Below, piece by piece: positions 20,471 through 35,780 of a stretch of 64,000 bases of DNA (its first letter is position 1; every line of letters starts with the position of its first letter). The stretch spans positions 1-64,000 of the forward strand of contig NZ_NGFO01000022.1 of the NCBI RefSeq assembly GCF_002149015.1, given 5' to 3'. The position numbers and the translations under genes were made by a program. The stretch is from Gordonia lacunae (GTDB lineage Bacteria > Actinomycetota > Actinomycetes > Mycobacteriales > Mycobacteriaceae). The notes under the pieces are model-generated. The model worked only from the letters and a program-made list of their open reading frames with translations, ran no database searches and was not told where the DNA came from.

Positions 20471-20544
20471 GCCCCCATAGCCCAATTGGCAGAGGCAGCC
20501 GACTTAAAATCGGCACAGTGTCGGTTCGAGTCCGACTGGGGGCA
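20471..20544 (+). tRNA. tRNA-Leu(TAA)-like gene, attachment site of the integrated element
   Basis: A full cloverleaf can be drawn. The acceptor stem is GCCCCCA/TGGGGGC with discriminator A. The D arm begins GCCC with loop AATTGGCAG, and the anticodon stem GCCGA/TCGGC encloses the loop CTTAAAA, giving anticodon TAA. The T arm is GTCGG-TTCGAGT-CCGAC. CCA is not encoded. The variable arm is only five bases (ACAGT), whereas leucine tRNAs normally have a long one. The anticodon therefore reads UUA but the body is class I. The 3' half (from 20500) is duplicated at 35733, showing integration into this gene, which remains complete. Confidence 0.85.
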
Positions 20545-20547
20545 CTC
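20500..20547. repeat. attL core (48-bp direct repeat)
   Basis: The 48 bases from CGACTTAAAATCGGCACAGT to CCGACTGGGGGCACTC are identical to 35733-35780. They cover the anticodon loop through the end of the tRNA plus three bases. This is the expected overlap for a tyrosine-recombinase element in a tRNA gene, and the integrase gene starts 34 bases away. Confidence 0.95.
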
Positions 20548-20580
20548 CTGACCAGGCGTTTATGGCCTGTTGGCGGTCAG

Positions 20581-21756
20581 CTACCCGCTGTCGGTGTCAC
20601 GACTTGTCACATTTCGCCCGAAACTGCTCGCAGCGGCCTTCAATGCGTCGTCCTGGGAGTGTGCGTAGGTCGCCAGTGTGAACGCCGCGGAGGCGTGGCC
20701 CATCCAGGCGGCGATGACCGCGATCGGTACGCCCCGTAGGTGCATGAGGGTGGCGCATGAGTGCCGTGCATCGTGCAGCCGGACGTGGGGGATCTTCAAC
20801 GTTTCGAGGAGCTTTCCCCACCGGAACGTGAGCAGGTTCGGGTGGTAGGGCTCGCCCGCCTCGTCGCACGCGACGTACTCCCCCGACCCGTACGACTCCC
20901 CGAGCGCCATCCGCTCCTGCAGCTGCTGTTTGCGTGCGGCCCTAAGTACGTCGACAACCTCATCGGGTAGGGGCAGCGTCCGTTGTGACCGCTTCGATTT
21001 GGGGGTGCCGGCGACGATCTCGCGGCCGACGGCGACACGGTTCTCGGCGACCGTGACCGTCTTCGCGCCTAGGTCGACGTTGTCCCATCGCAGTCCCGCG
21101 ATCTCGCCGCGGCGCAGCCCGTACAGAGCGAGCGTCCACAAGTGCCGGTCCCGGCATTCGTGGTCGAGGATCTGGAACATTTGTTCCTGTGTGAGGGTCT
21201 TCATCTCCGGGCGCTCGGCCGGGATGCGATCGACAAGGCGGGCGACGTTGCGCACCACGTGACCTTGCCGCTGCTGGTCCTCGAGCACCGCGGTCAGTAG
21301 ACCCAGCATGTGGTTAACCGATCGAGCGGACCACTTCCGTCGGCCATCGACTTCCCCGGCCCTCAGGCGTCCGACGAGGGCGTCGATGTCGCGCTTTGTC
21401 AGCTGCTGAACGATGGTGTCGCCGAGTTCGTCGCGGACGGGCGCAAGTCCCGTCTTGTGACTGCGCTTCGTGGATGGCTTGAGTCGGTGTTTCGCGGCCA
21501 GCCACCCGTCGACAGCCTGAGCGACAGTGAGTTTCGAGGCATGGACATAGGTCCCGGCCACGACCGACGCCTGCACGGAAGACAGCTCCGCGCGCGCTTC
21601 CGCCTCGGTGGTGAATCGCCTCCGGATCTGTCGGCGCTTGCCGCCGACGACGCCAGCATCGACGGTGACCTGGTAGCGAGTGACGCCCTTACCCGTCCGC
21701 CTGTCACGGACGGTCAGCTTGCGGATCTGTGGCGGGAGTTGGCGCCTGCTGCTCAT
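20581..21756 (-). CDS. int: Tyrosine recombinase / phage integrase
   Basis: A 391-residue integrase. The N-terminal arm-binding region (about 25-70; GVTRYQVTVDAG, RRFTTEAEARAELSS) and SAM-like core-binding domain (75-165) precede the catalytic domain. Catalytic residues are visible: R215 in YGLRRGEI, a Lys in TPKSKRSQ (253 or 255), H328 and R331 in LHDARH, H354 in MGHAS and Y364 in ATYAHS. It is complete and apparently active. It reads toward attL and its start overlaps the repressor stop (ATGA), so lysogenic expression of both may be coupled. An arm-type site candidate lies inside its 3' end. Confidence 0.95.
   Translation of the reverse strand: MSSRRQLPPQIRKLTVRDRRTGKGVTRYQVTVDAGVVGGKRRQIRRRFTTEAEARAELSSVQASVVAGTYVHASKLTVAQAVDGWLAAKHRLKPSTKRSHKTGLAPVRDELGDTIVQQLTKRDIDALVGRLRAGEVDGRRKWSARSVNHMLGLLTAVLEDQQRQGHVVRNVARLVDRIPAERPEMKTLTQEQMFQILDHECRDRHLWTLALYGLRRGEIAGLRWDNVDLGAKTVTVAENRVAVGREIVAGTPKSKRSQRTLPLPDEVVDVLRAARKQQLQERMALGESYGSGEYVACDEAGEPYHPNLLTFRWGKLLETLKIPHVRLHDARHSCATLMHLRGVPIAVIAAWMGHASAAFTLATYAHSQDDALKAAASSFGRNVTSRDTDSG
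20591..20611. promoter_or_regulatory. Candidate integrase arm-type site, attL side
   Basis: TCGGTGTCACGACTTGTCAC lies 43 bases inside attL and overlaps the last codons of the integrase gene. It recurs with one inserted base and one substitution at 35606-35627 near attR. A repeat present only in the two arms of the attachment region is what arm-type integrase sites look like. Confidence 0.5.
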
Positions 21757-22436
21757 CTGACACCCCCTCCGTCACTGGGTCCTGGGTTCGGATTCAGCAT
21801 CTCGCGCATATCCCAGTCCCTCACCTTCATCCCAAGAGCACGCATCCGTTGGACGACGATCTCGTTGTCCTCTTGGGCGCGCTCGAGCATTCGCTCCGCC
21901 TGTCTGCGTTCGTCTGGGTCGTCGGTGTCGGCCTTATGCACAGCCTCGATCGCCAGGCTCCCAATTCGGTCATACCTGTTCATCAGTTGCAGAGGTTCGT
22001 TTCCGTCCGAATCTCCGGATAGCACAGGCATTTCGACCCCCAGTGTGGTGACCGGAGCGTCCGCGTTCGGCTCGACGGGTCGCGACGCCAACTTGCCGGT
22101 GAACATCCCCAGCGCCGTCCTTGATCGGCGATCTGGGCCGTTAGGTACGTAGCGAACCACTTCGTCCAGGAGGCCCGGGTAGAGCAAGAGAACTGGGGCA
22201 ATCTCAAGTGCCGCGGCCATGACGATGAGTTCGGCGACATCGAGTTTCCCTGCGCGGGTGTTGCTTTCGATCTTCGATATGGCGACACGGGAGATCGGGA
22301 ACCCTAGAGCCCTTGTGCGCTCCGACAGGGCGGCGGCGGTCAGCTTTAGTGCACGCCGGCGCTGGCGCACCGCCTCGCCGACGCGGCCAGCCTGCTCGAG
22401 CTGCCACGTCTTCGCGTCGTCATCAATGTTCGGCAT
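21753..22436 (-). CDS. Helix-turn-helix repressor (lysogeny control)
   Basis: A 227-residue protein with an N-terminal XRE-type helix-turn-helix at about 15-75 (GEAVRQRRRALKLTAAALSERT, then SRVAISKIES and LDVAELIVMAAALEI). The C-terminal half has no recognised fold and ends in a charged helix (ERRQAERMLERAQEDNEIVV). No autoprotease Ser/Lys pattern was recognised, so induction may not be RecA-dependent. Its stop overlaps the integrase start. It diverges from the rightward operon across a 117-base region with operator-like repeats. Confidence 0.85.
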   Translation of the reverse strand: MPNIDDDAKTWQLEQAGRVGEAVRQRRRALKLTAAALSERTRALGFPISRVAISKIESNTRAGKLDVAELIVMAAALEIAPVLLLYPGLLDEVVRYVPNGPDRRSRTALGMFTGKLASRPVEPNADAPVTTLGVEMPVLSGDSDGNEPLQLMNRYDRIGSLAIEAVHKADTDDPDERRQAERMLERAQEDNEIVVQRMRALGMKVRDWDMREMLNPNPGPSDGGGVR

Positions 22437-22553
22437 TGCAACATTCTCTCACGGATACGCACGCATCCGGGAGCATCCGTGTTACGCTCCATTACGAGAC
22501 ATGAACCACGGGTTCAAGTTTCATTCTGGAGCAGACAATTAGGAGGTCTCCAC
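22437..22553. promoter_or_regulatory. Divergent control region with operator-like repeats
   Basis: Between the repressor and the rightward operon lie CGGAT (22452-22456), ATCCG (22465-22469) and ATCCG (22475-22479). The first two form an inverted repeat with an 8-base spacer, and GCATCCG occurs twice in tandem 10 bases apart. These are good candidates for repressor binding sites over the early promoter. AGGAGG at 22541-22546 is the ribosome-binding site of the next gene. Confidence 0.6.
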
Positions 22554-22742
22554 ATGTCCAAAAGCCTACTCAAGCCCGGAGAAGCCTTCGCGCGCATCGG
22601 CGTCGGCAACAGCAAGGGCTACGAACTGATCAAGTCCGGCGCACTTCGGTCGGTGAAGATCGGCAGCAATCGCCGCATCCCGGAGCAGGCGATCGACGAG
22701 TACATCGCCGGCCTCGAACAGGCTGCGAGCGGCGCAGCGTGA
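22554..22742 (+). CDS. Excisionase-like helix-turn-helix protein
   Basis: A 62-residue protein with the excisionase/MerR-like winged helix: LKPGEAFARIGVGNSKGYELI, then KIGSNRRIPEQAIDEYIAGLE. This is the pattern of small recombination directionality factors and AlpA-like regulators. It is the first gene of the rightward operon, fixed by the ATG at 22554 with AGGAGG upstream. The frame could be extended to 22479 but that would run through the operators. Its last codons overlap the next GTG. Confidence 0.8.
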   Translation: MSKSLLKPGEAFARIGVGNSKGYELIKSGALRSVKIGSNRRIPEQAIDEYIAGLEQAASGAA

Positions 22743-22900
22743 CTGATCGGTACGCCCACATCCGCGACCGCGAAGACCTCGGGGGAATCGAGATGTTCCC
22801 CGACTGCACCGACGACCTCGTCGGCGCAAAAGAAAAGGCCCCGGACCTGTTGGCGCAGGTTCCGAGGCCAGTAACCCCTGCACACCCTGATGAGAAGTGA
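22739..22900 (+). CDS. Hypothetical small protein (53 residues)
   Basis: The GTG at 22739 overlaps the preceding stop (GTGA) and opens a 53-codon frame: MTDRYAHIRDREDLGGIEM, then FPDCTDDLVGAKEKAPDLLA. It is acidic, soluble and has no recognised domain. The stop-start overlap, and the next gene starting 12 bases later, make it likely to be real despite its size. Confidence 0.6.
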   Translation: MTDRYAHIRDREDLGGIEMFPDCTDDLVGAKEKAPDLLAQVPRPVTPAHPDEK

Positions 22901-22912
22901 GGAAGTTCTGAC

Positions 22913-23122
22913 ATGCACATTACACACCGACGCCGACAGAGTCACCCCCTACCTGTCAGGCAGGTGACGCCGCTTGCCGCGGACGACGATCTCATGATCG
23001 ATCTGATGCACGACGCCCTTGCAGGTATCGAGCCGGAGGACGTCTCTGACCTGCTGGAACTCGCTGACATCGTCCACGAAGTCGAAGGCGGAACGTGGAC
23101 CGTTCAGACGGCGGTGGTCTGA
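22913..23122 (+). CDS. Hypothetical small protein (69 residues)
   Basis: It has a basic N-terminus (MHITHRRRQSHPLPVRQ) and an acidic helical C-terminus (DDDLMIDLMHDALAGIEPED, then VSDLLELADIVHEVEGG). GAGGAAG precedes the start. No family is recognised. It sits between the excisionase-like gene and other small early genes of the element. Confidence 0.6.
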   Translation: MHITHRRRQSHPLPVRQVTPLAADDDLMIDLMHDALAGIEPEDVSDLLELADIVHEVEGGTWTVQTAVV

Positions 23123-23353
23123 ATGTCCTCCACTGCAACCAATCGCCGTCCCCTGGCTGAGGTGACCGGGCGGGACCAGCTCATCGAGCGAATCATCGAC
23201 GGGCTGGACTACGGCTGCATCAGCGGCGCGACGACCTCGCAGTTGCTGATCTTCGTTGCCCTCCTGGAGGACCTCCCGCAGTACGAGGAGAAGCACGAGG
23301 ACCGCCCTGCTCGGCACCTCCAGCTCGTCGACACTTCGTCGGAGGTGATCTAG
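23123..23353 (+). CDS. Hypothetical small protein (76 residues)
   Basis: The ATG at 23123 directly follows the previous stop codon, so translation is probably coupled. The sequence is soluble with two likely helices (GRDQLIERIIDGLDYG and TSQLLIFVALLEDLPQYEEK). No known family is recognised. Confidence 0.6.
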   Translation: MSSTATNRRPLAEVTGRDQLIERIIDGLDYGCISGATTSQLLIFVALLEDLPQYEEKHEDRPARHLQLVDTSSEVI

Positions 23354-23355
23354 AG

Positions 23356-23826
23356 ATGTTCCGACCGGTCTACTACGAGCCCTCGAATACAACTGCCGAG
23401 GAACTGGCTGTGTTCGGGGTGAAGGTCCGTGAGATCCAGCGTGACCCCCAGTTCAAGTTCGCACTCGGTCGGTTGTGGAAGTCGGCTGCCAGCGTCTTCT
23501 TGTACGACGACGGCCGGGTCGTCCTGACGTTGCACAGCCACCTGAATGAGCGTGAGCGGCACCAAATCTACGGGATCGGCCAGACCGTCTTCCGTGACGG
23601 CGTCGCCCACTGCAAGAGGCAGGAGTTCACTCGTCTGCGGAAATCTAAGAAGCGGCCAGTTGCTTGTTGGTGGCAGTTCGTGTGGGTCGCAGTCTCGCGC
23701 GCAGACTCCCTGTACGACTCGATCTTCTGGTCGGCATACGGGCACCACCCGGATCAGATCCGCTCGATCGACTCCGAGGACGAGCGCCTACATCAGCAGC
23801 ACAGTGCCGAGGGGGCGACACAGTGA
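23356..23826 (+). CDS. Hypothetical protein (156 residues)
   Basis: A soluble protein with a Tyr/Phe-rich N-terminus (MFRPVYYEPSNTTAEELAVF), a possible beta-rich middle (ASVFLYDDGRVVLTLHSHLN) and an aromatic stretch (CWWQFVWVAVSRADSLYDSIFW). It ends in a His/Glu-rich tail. It starts 2 bases after the previous stop and overlaps the next GTG. No family is recognised. A role in replication or host takeover is only a guess from position. Confidence 0.6.
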   Translation: MFRPVYYEPSNTTAEELAVFGVKVREIQRDPQFKFALGRLWKSAASVFLYDDGRVVLTLHSHLNERERHQIYGIGQTVFRDGVAHCKRQEFTRLRKSKKRPVACWWQFVWVAVSRADSLYDSIFWSAYGHHPDQIRSIDSEDERLHQQHSAEGATQ

Positions 23827-24128
23827 TCGGTCACGAAGAGTTCGAACAGTTTTCGGCCCAGTGCCTGCTCTACACGGGGCGGGAATGGGACGGAACCGTC
23901 GAACACATCACACAGATGACCGCAGTCGTGTCCGCCGGTAACGATGTGCTCGACGCAGTTATCGACTGGCTGTCCGCTGCCCGCGAGCGCGCCGAACAAG
24001 ACGGGCGGCGGTGGAACACCAGCGAGTGTCGACGGCAAGCGCGCTTGTCCGGGGACCTCACCGTCTGTCCCGAATGGTTGGCCGCGGAGTTTGAACGCGT
24101 CACGCCTGACGATCGGATGCGCCGATGA
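23823..24128 (+). CDS. Hypothetical protein (101 residues)
   Basis: The GTG at 23823 overlaps the previous stop as GTGA. The 101-residue product begins MIGHEEFEQFSAQCLLYTGR. It contains the helical stretch NDVLDAVIDWLSAARERAEQ and ends PEWLAAEFERVTPDDRMRR. A longer frame from 23664 exists but overlaps most of the previous gene. No known domain is seen. Confidence 0.6.
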   Translation: MIGHEEFEQFSAQCLLYTGREWDGTVEHITQMTAVVSAGNDVLDAVIDWLSAARERAEQDGRRWNTSECRRQARLSGDLTVCPEWLAAEFERVTPDDRMRR

Positions 24129-24373
24129 CCCGCCGAAACAACGAATCCCAGACACCCGCCACGTTCATTGATGCTTGCCTGCAGGGGGTTGCAACGCCAG
24201 CAGACATTGACGACTGGGTAGACCGCTGGCATGCCGGCGAGGGGCCAGACCTGACGCTCGGCGAGTTCCTCGGTTTCACACCCGATGAGGGGAAGATGTG
24301 GGCTGAGGACCCCACCTGTCTTGACGAGATCATCAACGCGCACCGCGCTGGCGAGGCAGGTGAGGTGCTGTGA
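24125..24373 (+). CDS. Hypothetical small acidic protein (82 residues)
   Basis: It overlaps both neighbours by 4 bases (ATGA and GTGA). The sequence TPADIDDWVDRWHAGEGPDL followed by LGEFLGFTPDEGKMWAEDPT resembles small helical proteins often seen in actinophage early regions. Its role is unknown. The high content of acidic residues and tryptophan is notable. Confidence 0.6.
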   Translation: MTRRNNESQTPATFIDACLQGVATPADIDDWVDRWHAGEGPDLTLGEFLGFTPDEGKMWAEDPTCLDEIINAHRAGEAGEVL

Positions 24374-24723
24374 GAGATCCAGCAGTCGTCACGCTCAACG
24401 CTGACGGGGAGTACTACCTCAACGACGTGGCCACCGCGCTCATCATCGGCGTCAGCGCAGAAACCCTCCGGTCCCACGCTGTACGCGACGACCACGGCCG
24501 CGCCGCGTACCGACTCCCCGAGACCTTGATCCGCAGCGGACGCAGGCGCACAAGGGAGTTCGGCGAGATGACAGGGACGACCGAACCCGACATGGGAGAC
24601 GCGCTGATCCACTTCGCCAATCTCGAGGGCGTCGAGTTGATCTTCGAAGACGCGACGGGCGAGCGAATCACGCTCTCGGCTCCCGGGTTCTGGCGGCGGA
24701 ATGGAGGTGCACCAACCAACTGA
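24370..24723 (+). CDS. Hypothetical protein with possible helix-turn-helix (117 residues)
   Basis: It starts at a GTG overlapping the previous stop. Residues 15-50 (YYLNDVATALIIGVSAETLR, then DDHGRAAYRLPETLI) resemble a MerR/excisionase-like helix-turn-helix. The C-terminal part is acidic and unrecognised. It is the last gene before an intra-operon hairpin at 24791-24821, so it may close the first transcript segment. Confidence 0.55.
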   Translation: MRDPAVVTLNADGEYYLNDVATALIIGVSAETLRSHAVRDDHGRAAYRLPETLIRSGRRRTREFGEMTGTTEPDMGDALIHFANLEGVELIFEDATGERITLSAPGFWRRNGGAPTN

Positions 24724-24838: not shown

Positions 24839-25045
24839 ATGTCTGCATTGCAGTCTACCGATGCCCCGGAGGGGTATCCCGAACAATATGTCGACCCCGG
24901 AGACAAGCTGCTACTCGCTGCGCTGCGAGGTGGCACCTACGTGCTCGCTGTCCGTTGCCGTGTGTGCGGTGCACCGCTGACAGCGCAGCGGTCTAAGGCC
25001 CGCGGCATCGGCCCGAAGTGCGGGCGCCGGGAGGTTGTGGCATGA
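24839..25045 (+). CDS. DUF6011-like zinc-binding protein
   Basis: A 68-residue protein. The C-terminal half has CRVCGAPLTAQRSKARGIGP followed by KCG, the Cys-x2-Cys and GIGPxC pattern of DUF6011. That is a small zinc-ribbon-like domain common in actinophages and integrated elements. The function is unknown. The stop overlaps the next ATG. Confidence 0.65.
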   Translation: MSALQSTDAPEGYPEQYVDPGDKLLLAALRGGTYVLAVRCRVCGAPLTAQRSKARGIGPKCGRREVVA

Positions 25046-25518
25046 GCGCAACCCTCACGGTCTCGCTTCTGGCCGCAACGTTCGACGCATCACCCGGCAT
25101 GATCGTCAGCGCCCTCACCCTCGTCACTCCTGAGGACGTCCGCTTGTTGGACGCCCCCACGGCGGAGTGCTTGGACATGGTCCTGGCGATGGCGAAGAAC
25201 GGGGACCAGCCGGCGCCCGTTCTGTTGAACGCCGAGCTGATGCGTCACGGTCTGTATTCCGGCCACCGCGGCGAGCTTGTGAAGAACCGTGTTCTTGACG
25301 CGGTGACAACCGCTGTGCCCGGTGTCCGAGTCTTTGAGTACGCCTCCGCGGTCCTCGCCGAGGTGGTTCGGGCCCGGATGATCTCGGCCGCTGACGCCAT
25401 CGCTGAGCGGGCACGCGACGGTGCCGAAGCCGACGCCTGGCAGACGTTCATCCGAGAAGGGGCGGCGGTCCGGATGCTCTGGGAACGGTTGTGCGCAGCG
25501 CGGGGGGTGGCCGCATGA
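25042..25518 (+). CDS. Helical protein, possibly DnaB N-domain-like
   Basis: A 158-residue protein. Its middle part (LLDAPTAECLDMVLAMAKNG, then LLNAELMRHGLYSGHRGELV) and the helices around it faintly recall the N-terminal domain of replicative helicases, without an ATPase domain. It is encoded immediately before the DUF3631 ATPase and overlaps it (ATGA). A helicase-loader or partner role is possible but is an inference. The ATG at 25042 is chosen for its overlap with the previous stop. Confidence 0.5.
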   Translation: MSATLTVSLLAATFDASPGMIVSALTLVTPEDVRLLDAPTAECLDMVLAMAKNGDQPAPVLLNAELMRHGLYSGHRGELVKNRVLDAVTTAVPGVRVFEYASAVLAEVVRARMISAADAIAERARDGAEADAWQTFIREGAAVRMLWERLCAARGVAA

Positions 25519-26753
25519 CGGAGACTCCCGAGGCTATTGACGGCGCCGCGCTTCTCGACGCCGTTGAGGACCACTTCAACACCTACGTCGCGGTTCCCGA
25601 CGATGCGGACCTGTCGCTCCTGACCCTCTGGACGGTCCACACGCATCTTGCGCTCGAGTGCTACTCCACGCCTCGGCTGCTGATCGACTCCACAATGCCC
25701 GGGTCCGGGAAGACCACTGTTCTCGATCACATCGCAAGGTTGGGCTGCAATCCAGTCCAGGCAGCATCGCTGTCCAGTTCGGCAATGCTGGTGCGCATCC
25801 TCGACACCGGTATCCGAACGATTCTGATCGACGAGACGGACCGGAGCCTGAACCCCGACAAGCCTGGGGTCCAGGAGTTGATCGCTGTTCTCAACTCCGG
25901 GTACCGCCGTGGTGCTACTCGGCCGGTCTTGGTCCCGGATAAGGAGAGCGGGTGGGTCACGAAGGAGATGCCGACATTCGCACCTGTGGCGATGGCCGGC
26001 AACTCCCCGCGGCTGCCGGACGACACCCGCTCACGGTGCCTTCGGGTCTTGTTGATGCCCGACGTAACCGGCCGAGTCGAGGACTCGGACTGGGAGTTCA
26101 TCGAGGATGATGCGCTTGCGCTACGGGATCGCATCGTGGCGTTCGCCGATAGTGTTCGAGACTGTTTGCCGCGCGAGGTCGATCTACCGAAGGGGTGCCG
26201 GGGCCGCGCCAAGGAGAAGTGGCGTCCCCTGAAACGTGTCGCGGTCGCTGCGGGTGGGCACTGGCCTGCCATCGCGGACGACCTGATTGCTCGGGGGCTC
26301 GCCGAGGATGCCGCCGAGCATGAGGCGGGACTCCAGCACGAGCCACCCGGGATGGTCATCCTCCGCGATCTCGCTGCGGTGTGGCCGGGCGACGAAACCC
26401 ACGTGCCGACCGAGACTCTGGTGTCGAGGCTGGTCGTTCACAACTCCGATTACTGGGGTCTCCGGTCGAACTACGGCAAAGCGTTGACCGCGCACCGGTT
26501 GGGTCGCCTGGTAGCGCAGGCGTCGAAGGTGACGAGCACGCGGCCAGGTGGCCGTGGGCCGCGTGGATATGCTCTGACCTCGCTTGATCCGGTTTGGCAC
26601 CGTTTGGGGATACCTCGCAAAGAGACCGGTGCAAGTGGCGGAACTGGCGAAACTGGAGCGGTCGCCGCACCACTATCGCCGGTTGATCCGCTTGCACCGG
26701 ATGCACAGAGAGGGTCCGGAGAACGGTTCCTGAGCGATCGGGAGTCGGCATGA
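25515..26753 (+). CDS. DUF3631 ATPase, probable replication protein
   Basis: A 412-residue protein. The ATPase core has MPGSGKTTVLDH as P-loop (62-67) and TILIDETDR as Walker B (103-109), followed by TFAPVAMAGNSPRLPDDTRS, a sensor-like strand. DUF3631 domains occur at the C-terminus of phage and plasmid primase-helicases. Here the domain stands alone without a primase domain. It is the strongest replication candidate in the element. The last 60 residues are low-complexity (GASGGTGETGAVAAPLSPVD). It overlaps both neighbours by 4 bases. Confidence 0.8.
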   Translation: MTETPEAIDGAALLDAVEDHFNTYVAVPDDADLSLLTLWTVHTHLALECYSTPRLLIDSTMPGSGKTTVLDHIARLGCNPVQAASLSSSAMLVRILDTGIRTILIDETDRSLNPDKPGVQELIAVLNSGYRRGATRPVLVPDKESGWVTKEMPTFAPVAMAGNSPRLPDDTRSRCLRVLLMPDVTGRVEDSDWEFIEDDALALRDRIVAFADSVRDCLPREVDLPKGCRGRAKEKWRPLKRVAVAAGGHWPAIADDLIARGLAEDAAEHEAGLQHEPPGMVILRDLAAVWPGDETHVPTETLVSRLVVHNSDYWGLRSNYGKALTAHRLGRLVAQASKVTSTRPGGRGPRGYALTSLDPVWHRLGIPRKETGASGGTGETGAVAAPLSPVDPLAPDAQRGSGERFLSDRESA

Positions 26754-27061: not shown

Positions 27062-27264
27062 GCGAAACCACCCGCGCCCCCCGCGCCCACGTGTGCCAGC
27101 GTTGCTACGGCCCCTGCCGGTCCCACAAAGGGTCAATGCATGGATGGACTTGCGAAGCGTGCCTCCGGGACTACCTCGACAGTCAGACCCCAACCCCGAC
27201 TCCGGACGAGGGTCGCATCTCAGATGTAGCCCTCGTCCGCCGAGCCCGGAGACGGAACCGGTGA
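27058..27264 (+). CDS. Small zinc-finger protein (68 residues)
   Basis: Two CxxC pairs (CQRCYGPC and CEACL) around a Gly/His loop form a probable treble-clef or zinc ribbon at residues 13-35. The C-terminus is basic (ALVRRARRRNR). This fits a nucleic-acid-binding role. It overlaps both neighbours by 4 bases. Confidence 0.55.
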   Translation: MSETTRAPRAHVCQRCYGPCRSHKGSMHGWTCEACLRDYLDSQTPTPTPDEGRISDVALVRRARRRNR

Positions 27265-27685: not shown

Positions 27686-30600
27686 ATGCCAGAGTTGGCC
27701 ACGGCATGGGTGAGCGTGATTGCCGACACTCGGCAGATCCCAGGGCAGATCAGGCGGGCGTTCGGCGAGACGGATCGGATAGCCCAGCAGCAGGGGCAGC
27801 GCGCCGGTCGATCATTCTCCGGGGCATTCGGCACCTCCCTCAAAGCCGCAGGCGCAATCGCTGGCGCTGCAGGCGGAATCGCCGCTGTCGGCGCGGCGAT
27901 GCGCTCCTCAATTGGCGCGGGTATGGACTTCACCGGCGCATTGAACACCCTTCAAGCCGTGTCCGGCGCAACCGCCCAGCAGGTCGCTGAGGTCGGCCGT
28001 CGGGCACGCGAACTCGGAACAGACTCCCAACTGGCGTCTACGTCCAGCATCGACGCCGCCAACGCCATGTTGGAGCTCGCTAAGGGTGGGTTCACGGTTG
28101 AGCAGTCGATGCAGGCTGCTCGCGGCACGCTGCAGTTGGCTGCCGCAGCGCAGATCTCGGCCGCGGAGGCGGCAACCATCCAGTCGCAGGCGTTGCAGGC
28201 GTTTGGTCAGGACGCTACCTATGCCGGTAAGACCGCTGACATCCTCGCGAACGCCGCGAACGCATCGTCGGCCGAGATCACCGATGTCGCACAGGCTTTG
28301 CAGCAGTCCGGCACGGTTGCTAACCAGTTCGGCCTGTCGATGTCGGATACTGCGGCGTCGATCGCTTTGCTGGCCAACGCAGGCATCAAGGGATCTGACG
28401 CCGGCACGCTGCTGAAGTCGACCTTGCTCGCGCTCACTGATCAGAGCGACCAAGCCGAGACTGTCATGAAGCAGCTCGGCCTGACCGTCTACGACTCGCA
28501 GGGCCGATTTGTTGGCATGGAGTCGCTGTTCGGGCAGCTCAATGCTGCGTCCGAGCGGATGACGGACCAGCAGTATCAGCAGGCCACCGCGATTCTCTTC
28601 GGGTCGGATGCGATGCGTCTGTCGGGTCTCGCTGCGCAGGTTGGTGCTGACGGTTTCAGTCAGATGCGCGCCGCGATGGAGAAGAGCGGTTCGGCGGCTG
28701 ATGTGGCTGCGGCGAAGATGCAGGGACTCCCCGGGGCGTGGGAGAAGCTGAAGAACAGCGCGCAGGACGCCGGGCTGGCGTTCTACGACGTCGTAGAGGG
28801 TCCACTCACCTCTGCGGCCAACGCTGCCGCCAACGTTCTCGGCGACCTGGTCTCCGACGCGGAAGACGCCGGCAAGGGCGTGCGCGCCGCGTTCGACGAT
28901 TCGCGGGTCCAATCGTTCCTCGCGAGCGTCCGCAACGATGGTGCGAGCGCGTTCGCCGGGATCACTCAGGCTGCCACTGGCTTGGCTCCTGTTATTGAGC
29001 AGAACCTGAAGTCGGCTGCGACGATTGCTGGCGCGCTCGGCGTTTCAACATGGACTGTGTTTCTCGAGGTTGTCCGTGCAGCGACGACTGTCATCGAAGG
29101 CCTCACTCCGGTTCTGTCGACGCTGGCCACGTTCACGAGTAACAACGCCGGCCTGGCTACCGCGATGGTGGGTGCGTTCCTCGCGTGGAAGCTGATTCCT
29201 CCGGTTATGAGTCGGGTCCAGTCGGCTCTGGCGCCAGTCACTAGCGGCCTGTCGAATGCGCGGACCGCGGGACAGAACTTCATCCAGACCAACACGGCGA
29301 TGTCTCAAGGGCTCGCACAGAACCGCGCCCTGCTGATGCAGATGGCTGGCGTGGTGCAGACCGCGAATGGGCGTTGGCAAACACTTTCGGGTCAGTCTCT
29401 GACTGCCGCGCAGGCGATGCAGCGGATGAACACTGTTGCCGCGTCGGGTGTTACGACCTTCGGGAGGTTCGGTAGCGCGATTTCGCAGATCGGGTCTCAC
29501 GTTCCGGTGGTGACTCGTATGCAGGCGGCGTTCGTGAACACGGCGATCAGCGCGAATCAGTTCGGCCGCACTCTGGGTGTGGCGGCTGCGGCCAGTACGG
29601 GCCTTCGTTCTGCTGGGTCGGCGATGATGGGTGTGTTTGGCGGTCCGTTGGGCGCCGCAGTTGCGGGGGCGACGGTCTATTTGGGTCTTGCTGCGAGTGC
29701 TCACGCTGAGAACACGCAGAAGGCTCGCGCGCAGAGTCAAGCTGTGAAGGATCTTGCGGCGTCTGAGGTGGCGTTGGGGTCGGCGCTGTCGCAGTCTCGT
29801 GGCGCGATGTCTCAGGATGTTTGGGGTAAGGCTGGCGAGCAGTTGACTGCCTACCAGCAGACGCTGAAGACGACTGCCGACCAGCACAAGTCGACCTGGG
29901 ATCAGCTGAAGGAAATCGGTGGCATCGGCAAGATCCTGTTCCACACGAACGATGAGCTGAATCAGACTTCTGAGCGGGCGATGGCCGCACAGAAGGCGAT
30001 GACTGACCTCGGCATGACCAATGAGGAAGTTGCTCGCGCGGTCTACGGTACCGAGGGGCAGTGGAAGCTGGTCTCCGACCGCCTGGCCGGGATGGGTGAG
30101 GGCGGGGTGATGGCCGCCGCCAACCTGGCGCACATGAGGCGGGAGTTCGAAGGACAGCAGGCATCCGCATCGCGCGTCACACCAGGTGTTACGGAACTCG
30201 GCGATGCGATGCGGCTGCTGGGCGACAAGTCCGCAGATGCTGCCGACAAGTCCAGGGCACTCCGCGCAGCACTCGAAGCGCTCAATCCCGCCCGATCCAA
30301 GGGTGAGGCAATTGCACAGCACAACGAGATCATGCAGCGGATCACCGCCTCCACTAAGGAGGCGATCGATCGCACGCAGGGGTTCGGCAAGGCGTTGCTC
30401 GACGTCCAATTCGGTGTCAACACCTCGACAACCAACGGGCAACAGTTGCGAAAGTCGTTGATGGACATCGTTGATGCCACCGAATCCGCAGCCGTCAAGG
30501 GTGCGGACATGGCGGAACGCAACCGGCTGAACGGCGAGGCGCTGCAGCAGCTCGCCCGCCAGTACGGTTTGACGGTGGAGCAGATCCGCGGAGCCGCAGA

Positions 30601-33328
30601 CCAGCTCGGACTAGATGACATTGAGATCTCGGTCGCGATGAAGGATCTGACTCCGGGTGGGTTGCTGCATCAGCTCACTGCTATCTCCACCGCCTGGCGC
30701 GGAGTCCCTGAGGGACAGAAGACGGTCACCGTGGACCGGGACCAGGTCTCGGACGAAACAGAGGCTTGGCTCAATCGTGTCGGGGCGAGCGTGAAGCAGA
30801 TCCCGAACAGCAAGCAGGTCACGATCACGGCGAAAGACGATGACGCCAAGGCCAAGGTTCTGCTGTTGACGCAGAACCTTTCGGTTCTGAACGCGATGAA
30901 GGTCGACCCGAAACTCAACCTCGAGACCTCGCTGTTCCAGGCACGCAACACCGAAGCGATCGGCGCGCTGCAGGCTCTCGACAAGACGTTCGTGTCCGGC
31001 CGGGCAGGTCTCATGATCGACGAACTGCTGGCAGGTAAACAGTTCTCGATGCAGGAACTGCAGATCCTGTCTCAGACGACAGCTGATCCTGCCGTGCACC
31101 TGTTGATCGATCAGCTGTTGCAAAACGCCACGATCGCGAACAAGGCTCTCGACGATCTGGCCCGTAAGCGCAACGCGCAGATTCAGATTGATTTCATCCG
31201 TGGGCTGACCGCGCCGGCGCCGGTGGACAATCCGCAGCAGTTCGGCGCGAACTTTGACCGCAACCTGCAGGAGCTCGGTCGGCGGCAGCAGGGCGCTTAT
31301 GCCGACGGCGGTATCCGTACCTACGCAGAGGGCGGGATTGCGGCCCTCGCGAGGTATGCGAATGGTGGGCATCTCACCGAACCGCAGATCCTTCCGGGCC
31401 GCGGTGCGGGGTCGCTCTACACGACCGCTATGGGGCCGGCGATCGCTGCCGAGGGGGAGACTGGCGGTGAAGCGTGGATACCGCTGGGGCTCGGCAAGCG
31501 TGCCCGCTCTACCAGCATCCTCGCGACAGTCGCGGACCTCTTCGGCCTCACCCTGTTCCCCAAGGATCAGCTGCCTAGCAACATCTCCGGACTCTTCGGC
31601 GCGCTTGCTGGCGGCGCGGTCAAGGGCGCACTAAAGGGTGTCGATGGCGTTCGGAAGTTCGCTGACGGTGGCATTCTGCGGTCGCTCGCTGACGGCGTCG
31701 GAGCGTCTCGTCCTTTGACCGGCGCCCCATACGTGTGGGGTGGAACGAACTGGGGTGATTGCTCCGGAACCATGAGCGCGTTTGCTCGGATGGCTGCAGG
31801 GCTGGACCCCTTCGGCGGCCGGTTCTCGACCGCAACCATGGGCGCGCAGATCCAGCAGATGGGCGGTCAGCTCGGTCGGGGCGGGTCCGGGGATATGCGG
31901 TTCGGGTGGGTCAATGGCGGCCCGGGTGGCGGCCATACCGCGGGTACCCTTCCTGACGGCACGAACGTGGAGATGGGTGGCGGGAACGGCGGTGGCATGG
32001 TCGGCGGCTCCGCGGCCGGCGCTGACGACCCTCAGTTCAGCGAACACGCCTTCTTCCGTGTCGAGTCGCCGTACAACCCCGGCACAGGCGTCCCCGGCGA
32101 CCCGGGCGGCTGGGTGCAGCGCCCTGACGGGACGTGGGTACAGAACGCCCCCACGGGCAGCTTCGGCAGCAGTGGCAGCACAGGCGGCAGCGGGGAAGAC
32201 AAGACCCTCTCCGGGCGACTCGGCAACGCAGCATCAGCATTCGTCTCCGGACAGATCACCGACCTATTCAACGTCCTCTCCATCAACGACCAGCCCGGGT
32301 GGCTCGCCGCGATCACCGAGTACGAGAACCAGCAGCGCCAGGCGCAGAGCGGATCGGGCTCCAAGGGCACCGACCCGATGGTTAAGCAGCAATACGAGGA
32401 CGCAAAGCTCAAGTCCAAGCAGGACTTTGAGAACGCCAAGCTGCAACGCAAACGAACACACGACACCGCACTGGCGAAGCTGCGCAGCGAGCTCGATGCG
32501 AAGCGGATCAGTGAAGCCGAGTACGACCGACGCGTCGCCGACCTCAAGCGCAAGCACGAGGACACCGAGCTCGCGAAGAAGCAGGAGTTTGACCAGAAGA
32601 CTCTGGAGGCCAAGCAGAAGTTCGACCAGCTCAAGACGACACCGAATCAGCCGAACACCCCCGGCCAGGCGCCGACTGTGCGCGATCCCGGCACGACCCG
32701 CCCCGCCCCCGGTCAGGACCTCGGCCGCGGACCGACCGCAGGACTGCCCGCCACTGGCAGCGCGATCAAGGATGCATTCAGGTCCGGGCTACGCGAGGCA
32801 TGGCGTCAGGGTCCCCCCTGGGATGCGACCGACTGGATCATCAACAAGGAATCCGGTTGGGACATGAACGCCCGCAACGGGAAGTACTTCGGTGGCGGCC
32901 AGTTCAGCCCGGAGGTGTGGGCCGCTGCAGGTAAGACGCCGACAGCCGACGCACGCACCCAGGGCGAGGTGTTCGACAACTATGTCGGCAGCCCCCGCTA
33001 CGGCGACCCGCTGAAGGCCAAGGAGCACCACGTCAACGCTGGCTGGTATGAGCGGGGCGGTGTGATCCACGAGGGCGCCAACATCATGCTCAACGGGTTG
33101 GGACACAAAGAGACTGCGCTCCCATTCGACCCGCGTGATTTGAAAGCGTCACTCGACCGCGGTGGCAGCAGCTCGTCCGAGGCGGTAGTGGCCAAGCTCG
33201 ACCAACTACTCCAAGTCCTCGCGCACAACGTCCGCGGCACAACCTACAACGTCTCCGACGACCGCAGCCTGAAGCAAGCACAGAGGTCCGAGAAGCAGCG
33301 CATAGCAACAACCCTCGCCGGTCTCTAG
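27686..33328 (+). CDS. Phage tail tape measure protein with two cell-wall hydrolase domains
   Basis: An 1880-residue protein. The first 350 residues match the tape-measure core (MDFTGALNTLQAVSGATAQQ, LGTDSQLASTSSIDAANAML, then LAKGGFTVEQSMQ). Hydrophobic segments follow near 480-510 and 640-670. Around 1345-1420 is an NlpC/P60-like module (PYVWGGTNWGDCSG, C1359; GGHTAGTL, H1417). A charged coiled coil spans about 1560-1650. A lysozyme/Rpf-like module (WIINKESGWDMNARNGKYFG, E1722; GGGQFSPEVW) precedes the C-terminus. Such proteins set tail length and help DNA cross the wall. No other tail gene is present, which is highly unusual. At the usual 1.5 angstroms per residue the length would suit a tail of roughly 280 nm if unprocessed. 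Confidence 0.95.
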   Translation: MPELATAWVSVIADTRQIPGQIRRAFGETDRIAQQQGQRAGRSFSGAFGTSLKAAGAIAGAAGGIAAVGAAMRSSIGAGMDFTGALNTLQAVSGATAQQVAEVGRRARELGTDSQLASTSSIDAANAMLELAKGGFTVEQSMQAARGTLQLAAAAQISAAEAATIQSQALQAFGQDATYAGKTADILANAANASSAEITDVAQALQQSGTVANQFGLSMSDTAASIALLANAGIKGSDAGTLLKSTLLALTDQSDQAETVMKQLGLTVYDSQGRFVGMESLFGQLNAASERMTDQQYQQATAILFGSDAMRLSGLAAQVGADGFSQMRAAMEKSGSAADVAAAKMQGLPGAWEKLKNSAQDAGLAFYDVVEGPLTSAANAAANVLGDLVSDAEDAGKGVRAAFDDSRVQSFLASVRNDGASAFAGITQAATGLAPVIEQNLKSAATIAGALGVSTWTVFLEVVRAATTVIEGLTPVLSTLATFTSNNAGLATAMVGAFLAWKLIPPVMSRVQSALAPVTSGLSNARTAGQNFIQTNTAMSQGLAQNRALLMQMAGVVQTANGRWQTLSGQSLTAAQAMQRMNTVAASGVTTFGRFGSAISQIGSHVPVVTRMQAAFVNTAISANQFGRTLGVAAAASTGLRSAGSAMMGVFGGPLGAAVAGATVYLGLAASAHAENTQKARAQSQAVKDLAASEVALGSALSQSRGAMSQDVWGKAGEQLTAYQQTLKTTADQHKSTWDQLKEIGGIGKILFHTNDELNQTSERAMAAQKAMTDLGMTNEEVARAVYGTEGQWKLVSDRLAGMGEGGVMAAANLAHMRREFEGQQASASRVTPGVTELGDAMRLLGDKSADAADKSRALRAALEALNPARSKGEAIAQHNEIMQRITASTKEAIDRTQGFGKALLDVQFGVNTSTTNGQQLRKSLMDIVDATESAAVKGADMAERNRLNGEALQQLARQYGLTVEQIRGAADQLGLDDIEISVAMKDLTPGGLLHQLTAISTAWRGVPEGQKTVTVDRDQVSDETEAWLNRVGASVKQIPNSKQVTITAKDDDAKAKVLLLTQNLSVLNAMKVDPKLNLETSLFQARNTEAIGALQALDKTFVSGRAGLMIDELLAGKQFSMQELQILSQTTADPAVHLLIDQLLQNATIANKALDDLARKRNAQIQIDFIRGLTAPAPVDNPQQFGANFDRNLQELGRRQQGAYADGGIRTYAEGGIAALARYANGGHLTEPQILPGRGAGSLYTTAMGPAIAAEGETGGEAWIPLGLGKRARSTSILATVADLFGLTLFPKDQLPSNISGLFGALAGGAVKGALKGVDGVRKFADGGILRSLADGVGASRPLTGAPYVWGGTNWGDCSGTMSAFARMAAGLDPFGGRFSTATMGAQIQQMGGQLGRGGSGDMRFGWVNGGPGGGHTAGTLPDGTNVEMGGGNGGGMVGGSAAGADDPQFSEHAFFRVESPYNPGTGVPGDPGGWVQRPDGTWVQNAPTGSFGSSGSTGGSGEDKTLSGRLGNAASAFVSGQITDLFNVLSINDQPGWLAAITEYENQQRQAQSGSGSKGTDPMVKQQYEDAKLKSKQDFENAKLQRKRTHDTALAKLRSELDAKRISEAEYDRRVADLKRKHEDTELAKKQEFDQKTLEAKQKFDQLKTTPNQPNTPGQAPTVRDPGTTRPAPGQDLGRGPTAGLPATGSAIKDAFRSGLREAWRQGPPWDATDWIINKESGWDMNARNGKYFGGGQFSPEVWAAAGKTPTADARTQGEVFDNYVGSPRYGDPLKAKEHHVNAGWYERGGVIHEGANIMLNGLGHKETALPFDPRDLKASLDRGGSSSSEAVVAKLDQLLQVLAHNVRGTTYNVSDDRSLKQAQRSEKQRIATTLAGL

Positions 33329-33362: not shown

Positions 33363-34007
33363 ATGAGCCACTACGACCAAGCCAAGAAGGACATGGAAGA
33401 AGTCCGCACCACACTCGCTGACGCCGTCGCCCGCATCCGAGCGAACGACAACTACTCAGCCGAAGGCAAGCGGCGCGAGATCGCACGAGTCACACTCACC
33501 GCACGAGAAGCAGCCAACGCACTCAAGACCGACCACGCCAACACCCGAGCACAACGACGCAGCCAACTGCAGCGCGAACTATTCGGCAGCCCCAGCGACG
33601 CATCCAGCATCATCCTCCTGCGCGACAGCCAAGACCGAGCAGCCGCACTCAAAGACCCCGAACAGGCAGACGCAATGATGCAGCGAGCCATCCAATCCGG
33701 CGACACCTACCTCGCCAAAGCCGTCGCCCAAGTCTCCATCAACCACGGCTGGAACGACCCCGTCCGCGCCCTCGCACACCACGACCCGGACACTGGCGAA
33801 CTCATCAACGAACTCGCAGAGCTCCCTGAAGGACCACGCACAGTAGGAACAGACAAGCTCGTATTCCGCGTACCCAACGCCAGCGAACTCGGGGATGCCG
33901 ACGACGAAGGCCTCGCCCGAATGGCCGGCACCTACTCCAACCAAGAGAAGCAACAAGCCGCCCGAGTCCTCCGCGAGTACAGCCACACCGGCAACGTCGG
34001 AGTCTGA
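33363..34007 (+). CDS. Unknown protein encoded directly after the tape measure protein
   Basis: A 214-residue hydrophilic protein. Residues 1-75 form a basic, probably coiled-coil helix (SHYDQAKKDMEEVRTTLADA, KRREIARVTLTAREAANALK, THANTRAQRRSQLQREL-like). The middle is helical (QADAMMQRAIQSGDTYLAKA) and the C-terminus is loop-rich. It has a good ribosome-binding site (GAAGGAG) and is followed by a terminator, so it closes the operon. It does not look like a distal tail protein, the gene normally found here. A tail chaperone or scaffold-like partner of the tape measure protein is an inference from position. Confidence 0.6.
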   Translation: MSHYDQAKKDMEEVRTTLADAVARIRANDNYSAEGKRREIARVTLTAREAANALKTDHANTRAQRRSQLQRELFGSPSDASSIILLRDSQDRAAALKDPEQADAMMQRAIQSGDTYLAKAVAQVSINHGWNDPVRALAHHDPDTGELINELAELPEGPRTVGTDKLVFRVPNASELGDADDEGLARMAGTYSNQEKQQAARVLREYSHTGNVGV

Positions 34008-34031
34008 CCGGTCCCACGGTGACCCCGCACA

Positions 34032-34068: not shown

Positions 34069-34479
34069 GACCCTTCTCGGTGGCGTCACCGAAAAGGGGA
34101 CGAGTCTCCAAAACCGCAGGTCAGAAGGTTCGCACTGGTCACGGGGTGGGGGTATGCCCCCTCAGGCGCACGACTCGCCCCCCAAGGCATTGGCGGTACC
34201 CCCTCCGAGGTACCCCCCTCCCCCCTGGGGTATCCCCGGTTTCGGTCTCGTCGGGCCGGACTTCTCACGGTTGACCGTGAAATCTGGTGTGGAAAAAGCT
34301 GCGGGGAGAGAGATCGCCAATGCCGTGAGGGGCGTCGGGGGTGCGCTGGGGGTCGCCCCCCACCATCTCCCTCGACCGGCGCATATGGGGCAGGGCCGTT
34401 GTCGATGGGTCAGACGAATCGGAACTTGATCCTTAGCATTCGAGCCGCTGTTGTCGTTCGCCGCGGTTAGCATCACGCC
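34069..34479. other. Non-coding region rich in GGGGTA/TACCCC repeats
   Basis: No convincing gene in about 410 bases. Between 34148 and 34237 there are several related elements: GGGGGTATGCCCCC (34148-34161), GGTACCCCC twice (34195-34203 and 34209-34217) and CCCCTGGGGTATCCCC (34222-34237). A perfect palindrome TCACGGT-TG-ACCGTGA follows at 34265-34280, and another G/C-run pair near 34340-34365. Clustered short repeats in a satellite's only large non-coding gap suggest an origin, a packaging (cos/pac) site or a regulatory array. Nothing in the sequence decides between these. Confidence 0.5.
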
Positions 34480-34767
34480 ATGCATTCGATCTTCACCAGC
34501 TACGGCGACATGAACATAGAGGCCTATTCGATTAGGCCGCACAAGAGTCCAGAAAACGGGCGCGAACGAGAAGCATCTATCGCTGTGCGCTTGGGCACGG
34601 GCGGCGTGGCGGAGGGCGACCGGCCCGTCTACCTCAGCTTCACGATCGATGAGGCGCAGGAACTGGCCGACGTGCTCAAGAACCTTTCCGAGGCAGCTCG
34701 ACGTGGCGAGTACAGCAAAAGCGGCGATGAGCTGATCGAGCGCCGGGGCAAGGCCAATCGTGAATAA
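34480..34767 (+). CDS. Hypothetical protein (95 residues), accessory block near attR
   Basis: A soluble 95-residue protein. It has a beta-rich first half (MHSIFTSYGDMNIEAYSI, EASIAVRLG, PVYLSFTIDEAQELADVL) and a helical C-terminus (KNLSEAARRGEYSKSGDELI). No family is recognised. It overlaps the next gene by 8 bases and stands apart from the main operon, as genes expressed in the integrated state often do. Confidence 0.55.
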   Translation: MHSIFTSYGDMNIEAYSIRPHKSPENGREREASIAVRLGTGGVAEGDRPVYLSFTIDEAQELADVLKNLSEAARRGEYSKSGDELIERRGKANRE

Positions 34768-35173
34768 CCTCTCCGCCAACCGTCTCATCTCGATCCTGGC
34801 CGCTGCCGGCGCCGTGATCCTGCTGATTGTGTGTATCCCGTTGATGGCATCGACGATGCGTGGTCCGGGAGCGAACTGCGGGACAGTCTTTGCGTCATCG
34901 GATACCTGGACATACTCGTCCAGCTATGAGTCGGGCGACTCGTCGTACTACGACGGGGCGAGAACAGAAGCAGACTTCCGTGCCGGCGCTCAGGCTGCCG
35001 TCGACGATCTGTTTGCAGATATCAGCGTGGGCGCGGCCGCGTACGAGTACTGCCAGAACCAGCACTCCGATCGCCGCATCCTGTTGATCTCACTAGGTTC
35101 TGTCTCGTTCGTGCTGTTGGTGGTCTCCGGCGTCGTGTGGTGGATGGGCCGTCGTCCTCAGCAGCAGGAATGA
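34760..35173 (+). CDS. Membrane protein with two transmembrane segments
   Basis: A 137-residue protein starting at a GTG that overlaps the previous gene. Membrane helices lie at about 9-30 (LISILAAAGAVILLIVCIPL) and 106-128 (ILLISLGSVSFVLLVVSGVV). A Ser/Tyr/Asp-rich loop with two cysteines (C40, C98) sits between and is probably extracytoplasmic. A lysogenically expressed envelope protein beside attR is a typical place for superinfection exclusion, but this is inference. Confidence 0.6.
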   Translation: MNNLSANRLISILAAAGAVILLIVCIPLMASTMRGPGANCGTVFASSDTWTYSSSYESGDSSYYDGARTEADFRAGAQAAVDDLFADISVGAAAYEYCQNQHSDRRILLISLGSVSFVLLVVSGVVWWMGRRPQQQE

Positions 35174-35382
35174 GCGTTTCAGGGTGTTGTGGGCACTGTC
35201 GATCAACGACGAAGGTTCTACTGACGGTCCCTGAGGCTGCCGAAGCGTTGTCGACGTCGGTGTCTCAGCTGTACCGGCTGCACAAGGCGGGGAAGATCAC
35301 GTTCACCCGGTCGGGGGAGAGACAGACGCGGGTGCATATCGATGAGATCCGTTCGTATGCGGCGTCGCTCAGGACGTTTTAG
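35170..35382 (+). CDS. Second excisionase-like helix-turn-helix protein
   Basis: A 70-residue protein, ATG overlapping the previous stop. Residues 15-68 are an HTH_17-type winged helix (LLTVPEAAEALSTSVSQLYR, GKITFTRSGERQTRVHIDEI, RSYAASL). It is closer to classical excisionases than the 22554 gene and lies 350 bases from attR. The element therefore has an excisionase candidate at each end. Confidence 0.75.
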   Translation: MSVSGCCGHCRSTTKVLLTVPEAAEALSTSVSQLYRLHKAGKITFTRSGERQTRVHIDEIRSYAASLRTF

Positions 35383-35582
35383 CTCGTCTCGCGGCTGAGG
35401 ATCACCGCGAGGCCGTAGACGCACAGAATGACTTCGTCTGACACCGCGGGGTCGAGGCCCTTGAGCTCTCTTACGACCAGCTCAAATAGCCCTGGCGACG
35501 ATCGGCGAGCACCGGCCGCGATGGCCTGAGTGGCCTCTCCCCCTCGCTCTTGTGCTTCTTGGCTCGGGGTGAACTCAGGCAT
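35379..35582 (-). CDS. Hypothetical small protein (67 residues)
   Basis: It is convergent with the excisionase-like gene (4-base overlap). The sequence begins MPEFTPSQEAQERGGEATQA. Its second half (GLFELVVRELKGLDPAVSDE, then VILCVYGLAVIL) may form an amphipathic or short membrane helix. No family is recognised. The coding call is tentative. Confidence 0.4.
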   Translation of the reverse strand: MPEFTPSQEAQERGGEATQAIAAGARRSSPGLFELVVRELKGLDPAVSDEVILCVYGLAVILSRETS

Positions 35583-35605
35583 CGATGGCCCTCTCTACAC
35601 GGGGT

Positions 35606-35627
35606 TCGGTGTCACGAGGTTGTCACA
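35606..35627. promoter_or_regulatory. Candidate integrase arm-type site, attR side
   Basis: TCGGTGTCACGA-GG-TTGTCACA matches the site inside attL (20591-20611) at about 20 of 22 positions, in the same orientation. It ends 105 bases before the attR core. Confidence 0.5.
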
Positions 35628-35654
35628 ACTCGTCGCGGATCACTGCGGACACTA

Positions 35655-35714
35655 GCGGACGCACACGGACTGACAGTGCAGATGAGAGCGTGTTTCGCGG
35701 ACGCGTGCGGACTG
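35655..35714. repeat. Paired 18-bp direct repeat beside attR
   Basis: GCGGACGCACACGGACTG (35655-35672) and GCGGACGCGTGCGGACTG (35697-35714) differ at three positions. Further CGGAC units surround them (for example 35645 and 35718). They lie immediately inside attR and may be excisionase or integrase accessory sites. Confidence 0.55.
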
Positions 35715-35732
35715 CTACGGACGGAACCCCGG

Positions 35733-35780
35733 CGACTTAAAATCGGCACAGTGTCGGTTCGAGTCCGACTGGGGGCACTC
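35733..35780. repeat. attR core (48-bp direct repeat)
   Basis: A perfect copy of 20500-20547, consisting of the tRNA 3' part from the anticodon loop onward plus three bases. Upstream bases (ACGGAACCCCGG) do not complete a tRNA, so this is the displaced end. Chromosomal sequence resumes after 35780. Confidence 0.95.

Follow-up and report, generated by a model that had tools for sequence, protein, structure and literature searches.

We analysed a 64,000-nt window of the Gordonia lacunae genome (GCF_002149015.1, NZ_NGFO01000022.1 positions 1-64,000, forward strand) that contains a 15.3-kb element (20500-35780) carrying a gene for a tape measure protein (TMP), and asked whether this element is a phage satellite. 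The element is integrated at tRNA-Leu(TAA), the sole tRNA gene of the window, and is bounded by attachment (att) sites. These form an exact 48-bp direct repeat (20500-20547 and 35733-35780; 71 nt at 89%), with attL falling within the tRNA gene. When the flanks of the element are joined they correspond to a single contiguous 621-bp stretch of another Gordonia genome, G055 (93%), which therefore has the empty site. An initial annotation of this DNA had proposed exact att repeats in a tRNA gene, and this assignment is confirmed at 20500 and 35733, with the empty site in addition. The features of the element are the following, with the supporting matches in brackets.

20471..20545, +, tRNA-Leu(TAA), integration site (ARAGORN; a related element in genome G046 lies in the same tRNA)
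20500..20547, +, attL, exact 48-bp repeat (repeat pair; G055 empty site)
20581..21756, -, tyrosine integrase (PF00589 E 3e-21, phrog_1; G046 counterpart 87% identical)
21753..22436, -, helix-turn-helix (HTH) repressor-like protein (HTH_3, weak; phrog_3)
22554..22742, +, excisionase/HTH protein (PF12728, phrog_66; 75% in G046)
22913..24723, +, small-gene operon, starts at 22913, 23123, 23356, 23823, 24125 and 24370 (open reading frame (ORF) calls, relatives)
24839..25045, +, conserved 68-aa small protein (phrog_636; 53-67% in relatives)
25042..25518, +, conserved 158-aa element protein (G046 80%, G053 71%)
25515..26753, +, DUF3631 ATPase (PF12307 E 1e-14)
26750..27061, +, WhiB-like regulator (PF02467, phrog_12112)
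27058..27264, +, cysteine-containing 68-aa protein (partial, 72-83% in G050/G054)
27261..27665, +, HTH protein immediately 5' of the TMP gene (DNA 86% to G046)
27686..33328, +, TMP, 1880 aa (PF10145, phrog_10780)
33363..34007, +, 214-aa helical protein, hallmark of the candidate satellite family (profile relatives; AlphaFold prediction)
34177..34194, +, cos-like site 2 (phage-derived matrix, 20.3 bits)
34316..34333, -, cos-like site 1 (phage-derived matrix, 22.1 bits)
34480..35173, +, two small genes, one of 95 aa and one of 137 aa with hydrophobic segments (ORF calls)
35170..35382, +, second excisionase-like HTH protein (phrog_66 E 4e-7)
35733..35780, +, attR (repeat pair with attL)

The large ORFs of the element are those of the integrase, the DUF3631 ATPase and the TMP, and all of its major ORFs are open. 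Matches to Pfam and PHROGs bear out the integrase, the two excisionase-like proteins, the DUF3631 ATPase and the WhiB-like regulator named in the initial annotation, together with its 1880-residue TMP, for which all 1880 codons are open. The repressor named there stands only in part, as an HTH is found at 21753-22436 (-) but the match is weak, so we call this protein repressor-like. The 214-aa protein and both cos-like sites had been overlooked.

Like phage satellites, this is a mobile element that encodes its own functions for integration and control, and its set of virion genes is incomplete. It was searched with proteins of the phages LonelyBoi, Lucky10 and Ecliptus (terminase, portal, capsid, connector, tail tube, chaperone and HNH), and the TMP and the integrase alone matched. 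This upholds the earlier claim that the TMP is the only recognisable virion gene. The possibility of a hidden capsid or terminase gene was rejected on the basis of PHROGs scans and the same three-phage protein search. The element accordingly has no major capsid, portal and terminase of its own, the set that defines capsid-forming phage-inducible chromosomal islands (PICIs), and no capsid-redirecting gene of a known kind was recognised in it.

The TMP matches phrog_10780 over residues 3-1796 (1722 bits), contains no internal stops and aligns over its full length, at 65-70% identity, with its counterparts in 18 records of Gordonia phages from the LonelyBoi/BritBrat group; among these, LonelyBoi gp18 is about 70% identical. 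Nonsynonymous (dN) and synonymous (dS) divergence from the LonelyBoi gene are 0.21 and 1.37 (Nei-Gojobori), a ratio near 0.16, with dS close to saturation and the comparison taking in phage evolution too. Third codon positions hold 684 of the 1227 changes that separate the window gene from both LonelyBoi and Posh. These patterns indicate a clearly constrained gene, evolving under purifying selection. The initial annotation had suggested that a satellite TMP could alter helper tail length, DNA ejection or host range. The window TMP (1880 aa) is nearly equal in length to those of LonelyBoi (1892 aa) and Posh (1873 aa), so no large change in tail length is predicted for this element and the tail-length suggestion is weak here; it is plausible for relatives such as the G054 element, whose TMP has 1392 aa. 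At about 0.15 nm per residue, incorporation of that TMP would be expected to give tails some 60-75 nm shorter than those of the helper.

Relatives of the 214-aa protein were found in 4 of 58 other Gordonia genomes. In each of the four it lies in an att-bounded element of 14-20 kb (att repeats of 31-46 bp) with a shared backbone and one TMP:

G046 element, 16.2 kb, tRNA-Leu, the same tRNA as the window element
G050 element, 15.4 kb, tRNA-Met
G054 element (Gordonia tangerina GW1C4-4), 14.2 kb, tRNA-Lys
G053 element, 19.5 kb, tRNA-Ser

These elements run from the integrase and repressor genes through small genes, a replication gene, a WhiB-like gene and further small genes to the TMP and 214-aa genes, with fewer small genes kept in G053. 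The layout that the initial annotation had proposed to look for at other tRNA genes thus recurs in four further Gordonia genomes, with replication genes of differing types. The G046 integrase is 87% identical to that of the window and those of the other relatives about 25-28%; the replication module is of the DUF3631, helicase-like or prim-pol type; a tail assembly chaperone gene is inserted between the TMP and 214-aa genes in G054 and G050; and one of the four relatives, G050, encodes a small terminase (TerS). A sixth Gordonia TMP element (G008 C1 ~1226-1247 kb; L025, L026) has a DUF3631 gene, a TMP, an integrase and a 45-bp att repeat at tRNA-Lys, and is interrupted by repeated insertion sequence copies.

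In a maximum-likelihood tree that also holds phage and prophage TMPs, the TMPs of these elements occupy four separate positions, and the well-supported branches force at least four changes: the window TMP groups with LonelyBoi and Posh, that of G046 with Ecliptus, those of G050 and G054 together beside a prophage of G054's own genome, and that of G053 stands apart. The DNA of the window and G046 elements is 86% identical up to 27664 and unrelated from the start of the TMP gene, and homology between the window and LonelyBoi runs from 27671 on, at the TMP ribosome-binding region. These breakpoints indicate that the TMP is exchanged as a gene-sized module, swapped at gene boundaries, as expected if a TMP must fit the tail of the helper.

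A cos phage has its cos site where the two ends of its genome join. In the G054 element, a noncoding 34-nt stretch matches positions 1-34 of 18 phage records, all of Gordonia, with no other match in 50,697 phage records. These 18 phages belong to the group with the TMPs closest to that of the window. The match to LonelyBoi extends, less well, over the junction into the right end of the LonelyBoi genome, and in both LonelyBoi and the G054 element an HNH gene adjoins the cos stretch. The G046 element has about 43 nt in common with Lucky10 across the joined genome ends, and its cos and its TMP both indicate the Lucky10/Ecliptus group. The order cos-HNH-TerS in G050 is that of Ecliptus.

To score sites in the window we used a matrix built from four phage or prophage sites (Lucky10, Ecliptus, the IMG/VR contig L238 and a G036 prophage) and no satellite sequence. 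We relied on this matrix because an earlier cos pattern was partly satellite-derived and so circular for satellites; the choice of the 18-nt motif itself had followed sight of the satellite sites. The motif lies between the HNH and TerS genes in the G036 prophage and just 5' of TerS in L238, the expected place for a cos site. The best two matches in the whole window are 34316-34333 (-; 22.1 bits) and 34177-34194 (+; 20.3 bits), the next scoring 14.7 bits, and peaks in control loci reached 9.4-14.8 bits. Both sites sit in one 472-bp intergenic region 3' of the 214-aa gene. Site 1 reads GCCCCTCACGGCAT/TGGC...CTCTCCCC...TTTTTCCAC and continues in a Lucky10-like manner, and the Lucky10 18-mer, allowing at most two mismatches, has its single occurrence in the 5.75-Mb genome at this position. 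Site 2 reads GCCCCCCAAGGCAT/TGGC, and its continuation TACCCCCTCCGA resembles the cos regions of prophages in G052 and G036. The 34-mer of the LonelyBoi cos is absent from the window. An 18-mer match in a G026 prophage lies inside a predicted gene and was taken as chance. Three cos-like sites (Lucky10-like, G052/G036-prophage-like and LonelyBoi-like) occur together in the G054 element (L017 ~300-900).

The lack of recognised terminase, capsid and other tail genes, and the damage to the G008 element, could be accommodated if the element were an immobile remnant prophage that had kept its TMP by chance. We consider this explanation strongly disfavoured and very improbable, because the repeated retention of the same single virion gene would be unexpected. 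The att repeats are precise and the empty site exists, the layout recurs at other tRNA genes with different integrases, the TMPs are intact, constrained and drawn from several phage lineages, and cos sites are retained without a terminase gene. Neither decaying genes nor a residual phage-like gene order is seen: the ORFs are open, the backbone is conserved and non-phage, and the TMP is under constraint. No related prophage was found in which the segment is flanked by head genes, the TMP being all that the window element and phages share, and the relatives other than G008 are intact. Neither of the two findings that the initial annotation had named as refuting the satellite idea was made.

From these comparisons, the window element is probably a cos-type phage satellite of Gordonia siphophages that would build chimeric tails. 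The satellite idea, already put forward in the initial annotation, is supported by the att-bounded family, the helper-type cos sites, the small terminases of relatives and the exchange of TMPs with phages. A packaging signal aimed at helpers is evident for the family and weaker for the window element, where it is indicated by the similarity of the cos-like sites. Several observations weigh against this interpretation. The window element has no TerS, HNH or chaperone gene. Its host genome has neither a large terminase (TerL) of PF03354 nor a second TMP of similar type, which leaves it without a recognised resident helper of that type. The window cos region gave no genome-end match by blastn in the 50,697 phage records, and its cos-like sites resemble known cos sites without being identical to them. 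Finally, the TMP is of LonelyBoi type but the cos-like sites are of Lucky10 and G052/G036-prophage types; as they point to different phage groups, a single helper is not pinned down.

The proposed cycle would begin when helper infection leads the element to excise and replicate. Helper terminase and HNH endonuclease would then cleave its DNA at the cos-like sites and package it into helper heads, and tails would be put together around the satellite TMP, with tube, chaperone and tip supplied by the helper. The capsids might be remodelled or take up several copies of the element, three of which (45.8 kb) come close to a helper genome in size. That the satellite TMP would replace the helper TMP in these virions is inferred from the PLE satellites of Vibrio cholerae, in which such replacement occurs and deletion of the TMP gene lowers transfer by 96-99.9% (PMC12987554). 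The gain may be that satellite tails are spared by superinfection exclusion, or by inhibitors of tail assembly, directed at the helper TMP; other gains could be outcompeting helper tails, starving the helper of tail parts or better entry. On a change of helper, TMP and cos would be exchanged.

Alternatively, the TMP of a satellite could serve as a weapon that occupies the helper's chaperone, tail tip or tube protein, with no role in the satellite's own particles needed. The known tail-assembly inhibitors Rta and Tab (PMC10884400) target the TMP, and two of the Gordonia relatives also encode the chaperone that coats it. However, a decoy needs no 1880 residues, and here conservation and constraint extend over the full length of the TMP and take in its lytic C-terminal region; moreover, PLE TMPs enter virions and are required for transfer. 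We therefore regard a weapon as unlikely, though less so than a remnant prophage.

We extended the analysis of the 214-aa protein beyond Gordonia. With the window's own genome counted, its profile matched 14 genomes out of 399 in the order and 16 out of 395 in the class. A TMP lies beside the gene at 17 of the 29 loci examined, namely the five Gordonia elements, 11 loci with a TMP by PHROGs (G278, G258b, G359, G141, G124, G744, G596, G643, G559, G129 and G607) and G258a, where the adjacent giant ORF is a TMP by BLASTP; as the loci were found through the 214-aa protein, this count is not a census of TMP satellites. A giant ORF in G136 (unconfirmed) and a split TMP in G137 were not counted. Small terminases were detected by PHROGs at seven loci (G050, G278, G258a, G359, G209, G071 and plasmid pSM17B; phrog_1496 or phrog_4479, E 1e-16 to 7e-36), and G593 and G573 gave additional TerS profile matches, G573 together with a large terminase. 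In G179 (contig 100, L121:17330-19117) a 595-aa minor tail protein (phrog_110, E 3e-185) occupies the place of the TMP. No capsid or portal gene was recognised at these loci in searches with the proteins of one to three Gordonia phages, and the simple gene caller used for the neighbourhoods may miss small genes.

The 214-aa protein is not TMP-specific, as some loci lack a TMP and have a gene for TerS, TerL or a minor tail protein, or defence-like genes, next to it. It is predicted to be helical (AlphaFold, three-sequence alignment, pLDDT 80). It had no match in phage records, and a Foldseek comparison of the predicted structure with BFVD and PDB gave nothing with E below 0.001. A relationship to scaffold, chaperone or protease proteins was rejected (profile comparison probability under 1%). 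From its neighbour genes, our guess is that it acts in assembly or packaging. Scans of IMG/VR with the element proteins returned one short contig (L146; IMGVR_UViG_3300049781_000028) with the gene row HNH, 214-aa relative, TerS and TerL, which may come either from a phage or from a larger satellite with the same packaging neighbourhood. One family member, G209 (C1 ~3208-3213 kb; L125), has DUF3631 and TerS genes without a TMP, and nearby ORFs resemble SIR2-type and other defence genes.

On the Streptomyces conjugative plasmid pSM17B (L118, NZ_CP029340.1, 5061-6337), which carries TraA and TraB, a TerS gene (phrog_1496) adjoins a 214-aa relative; this plasmid is possibly also moved by phage packaging. 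The same arrangement could favour the view that the window element is an integrative one whose transfer relies chiefly on conjugation or generalised transduction and in which the TMP is passenger cargo. We give this little credence, as the window element has no transfer gene, and across the class no other virion gene stands next to the 214-aa gene as often as the TMP. No translocase domain was recognised in the element, the TraB-type DNA translocase being the mark of actinomycete integrative and conjugative elements (AICEs) and their kind. We lean somewhat towards a broader view in which the 214-aa protein marks a family of satellites across Actinomycetes whose usual virion contribution is the TMP. 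Members of this family would carry cos sites of more than one helper type side by side and swap TMPs with helpers, so that the TMP, not head size, would be the main means of particle control.

PLEs are among the closest known parallels. The chimeric-tail principle was shown for the Vibrio cholerae PLEs in March 2026 (PMC12987554), before which no satellite had been reported with a TMP. PLEs likewise combine a helper capsid with an alternative TMP, to which some of them add a chaperone or tail-tip protein. They encode their own TMP, tail assembly chaperone and baseplate hub, and a tail with helper parts is demonstrated for them whereas it is proposed for the Gordonia element. PLEs occur in Vibrio, a host of another phylum, and the Gordonia family is set apart from them by description, not by sequence comparison with PLEs: its integrase is a tyrosine integrase at tRNA genes, its TMP is of siphophage type and is exchanged between helper lineages, its replication genes are of the DUF3631 or prim-pol type, its cos sites are helper-type and its hosts are spread over Actinomycetes.

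Cos-type PICIs such as SaPIbov5 (PMC8569155) are alike in their size of about 15 kb, their integrase, repressor, excisionase and replication genes, and their helper-like cos or own TerS without a complete head set. The window element has an integrase, excisionases and a DUF3631 ATPase, as judged from domain matches, and cos-like sites; in contrast to cos-type PICIs, it carries a TMP and no recognisable capsid-redirecting gene. Capsid-forming PICIs also make chimeric particles, and putative tmp genes have been reported in some (PMC12987554 Extended Data Fig. 10), but they encode head and terminase and borrow tails, whereas the window element has no head or terminase gene and brings a tail part. 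Satellites or candidates are already on record from actinobacteria. The mycobacterial candidate PICIs, several of them at tRNA genes, are defined by an integrase plus a major capsid gene (PMC10654092), a definition outside which the capsid-less window element falls. MulchRoom and MiniFlayer of Streptomyces have genes for terminase, portal and capsid and lack a primase, and the paper describing them mentions no TMP (PMC10690885).

Literature searches of open-licence papers found no TMP-bearing actinobacterial satellite. The Gordonia family would thus be a new and widespread satellite variant, unrelated to PLEs by description; it would be a variant and not a new kind because the principle had already been shown for PLEs. 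A family across Actinomycetes that is unrelated to PLEs and has the TMP as its most frequent virion gene would make tail takeover a general satellite strategy with more than one origin. Searches for actinobacterial satellites based on capsid genes miss such elements. Lucky10, LonelyBoi and Ecliptus, the phages whose cos sites and TMPs match, come from isolations on Gordonia terrae, so the range of helpers, the advantage that a satellite TMP brings and the use of multiple cos sites are directly testable in soil isolates.

Some further features were noted. In G056, contigs C2, C7, C11, C15 and C27 hold many TMP copies or fragments, some inverted within one contig, which reflect either several related prophages or an assembly problem. 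Within the window element, the DUF3631 ATPase is a probable replication protein, replaced by other replication proteins in relatives. The 158-aa protein (25042-25518) had no relative among viral contigs in the IMG/VR scan. The 68-aa protein encoded at 24839-25045 resembles the C-terminal end of uncharacterised phage families (phrog_636), and the small gene at 24370-24723 is kept in most relatives. The two small genes at 34480-35173 are possible cargo. Right after the 214-aa gene, a near-perfect inverted repeat (34032-34066; GTGCCGCGCGTAA-TGACGACCG-TTACGCGCGGCAC) may be a terminator or a protein-binding site.

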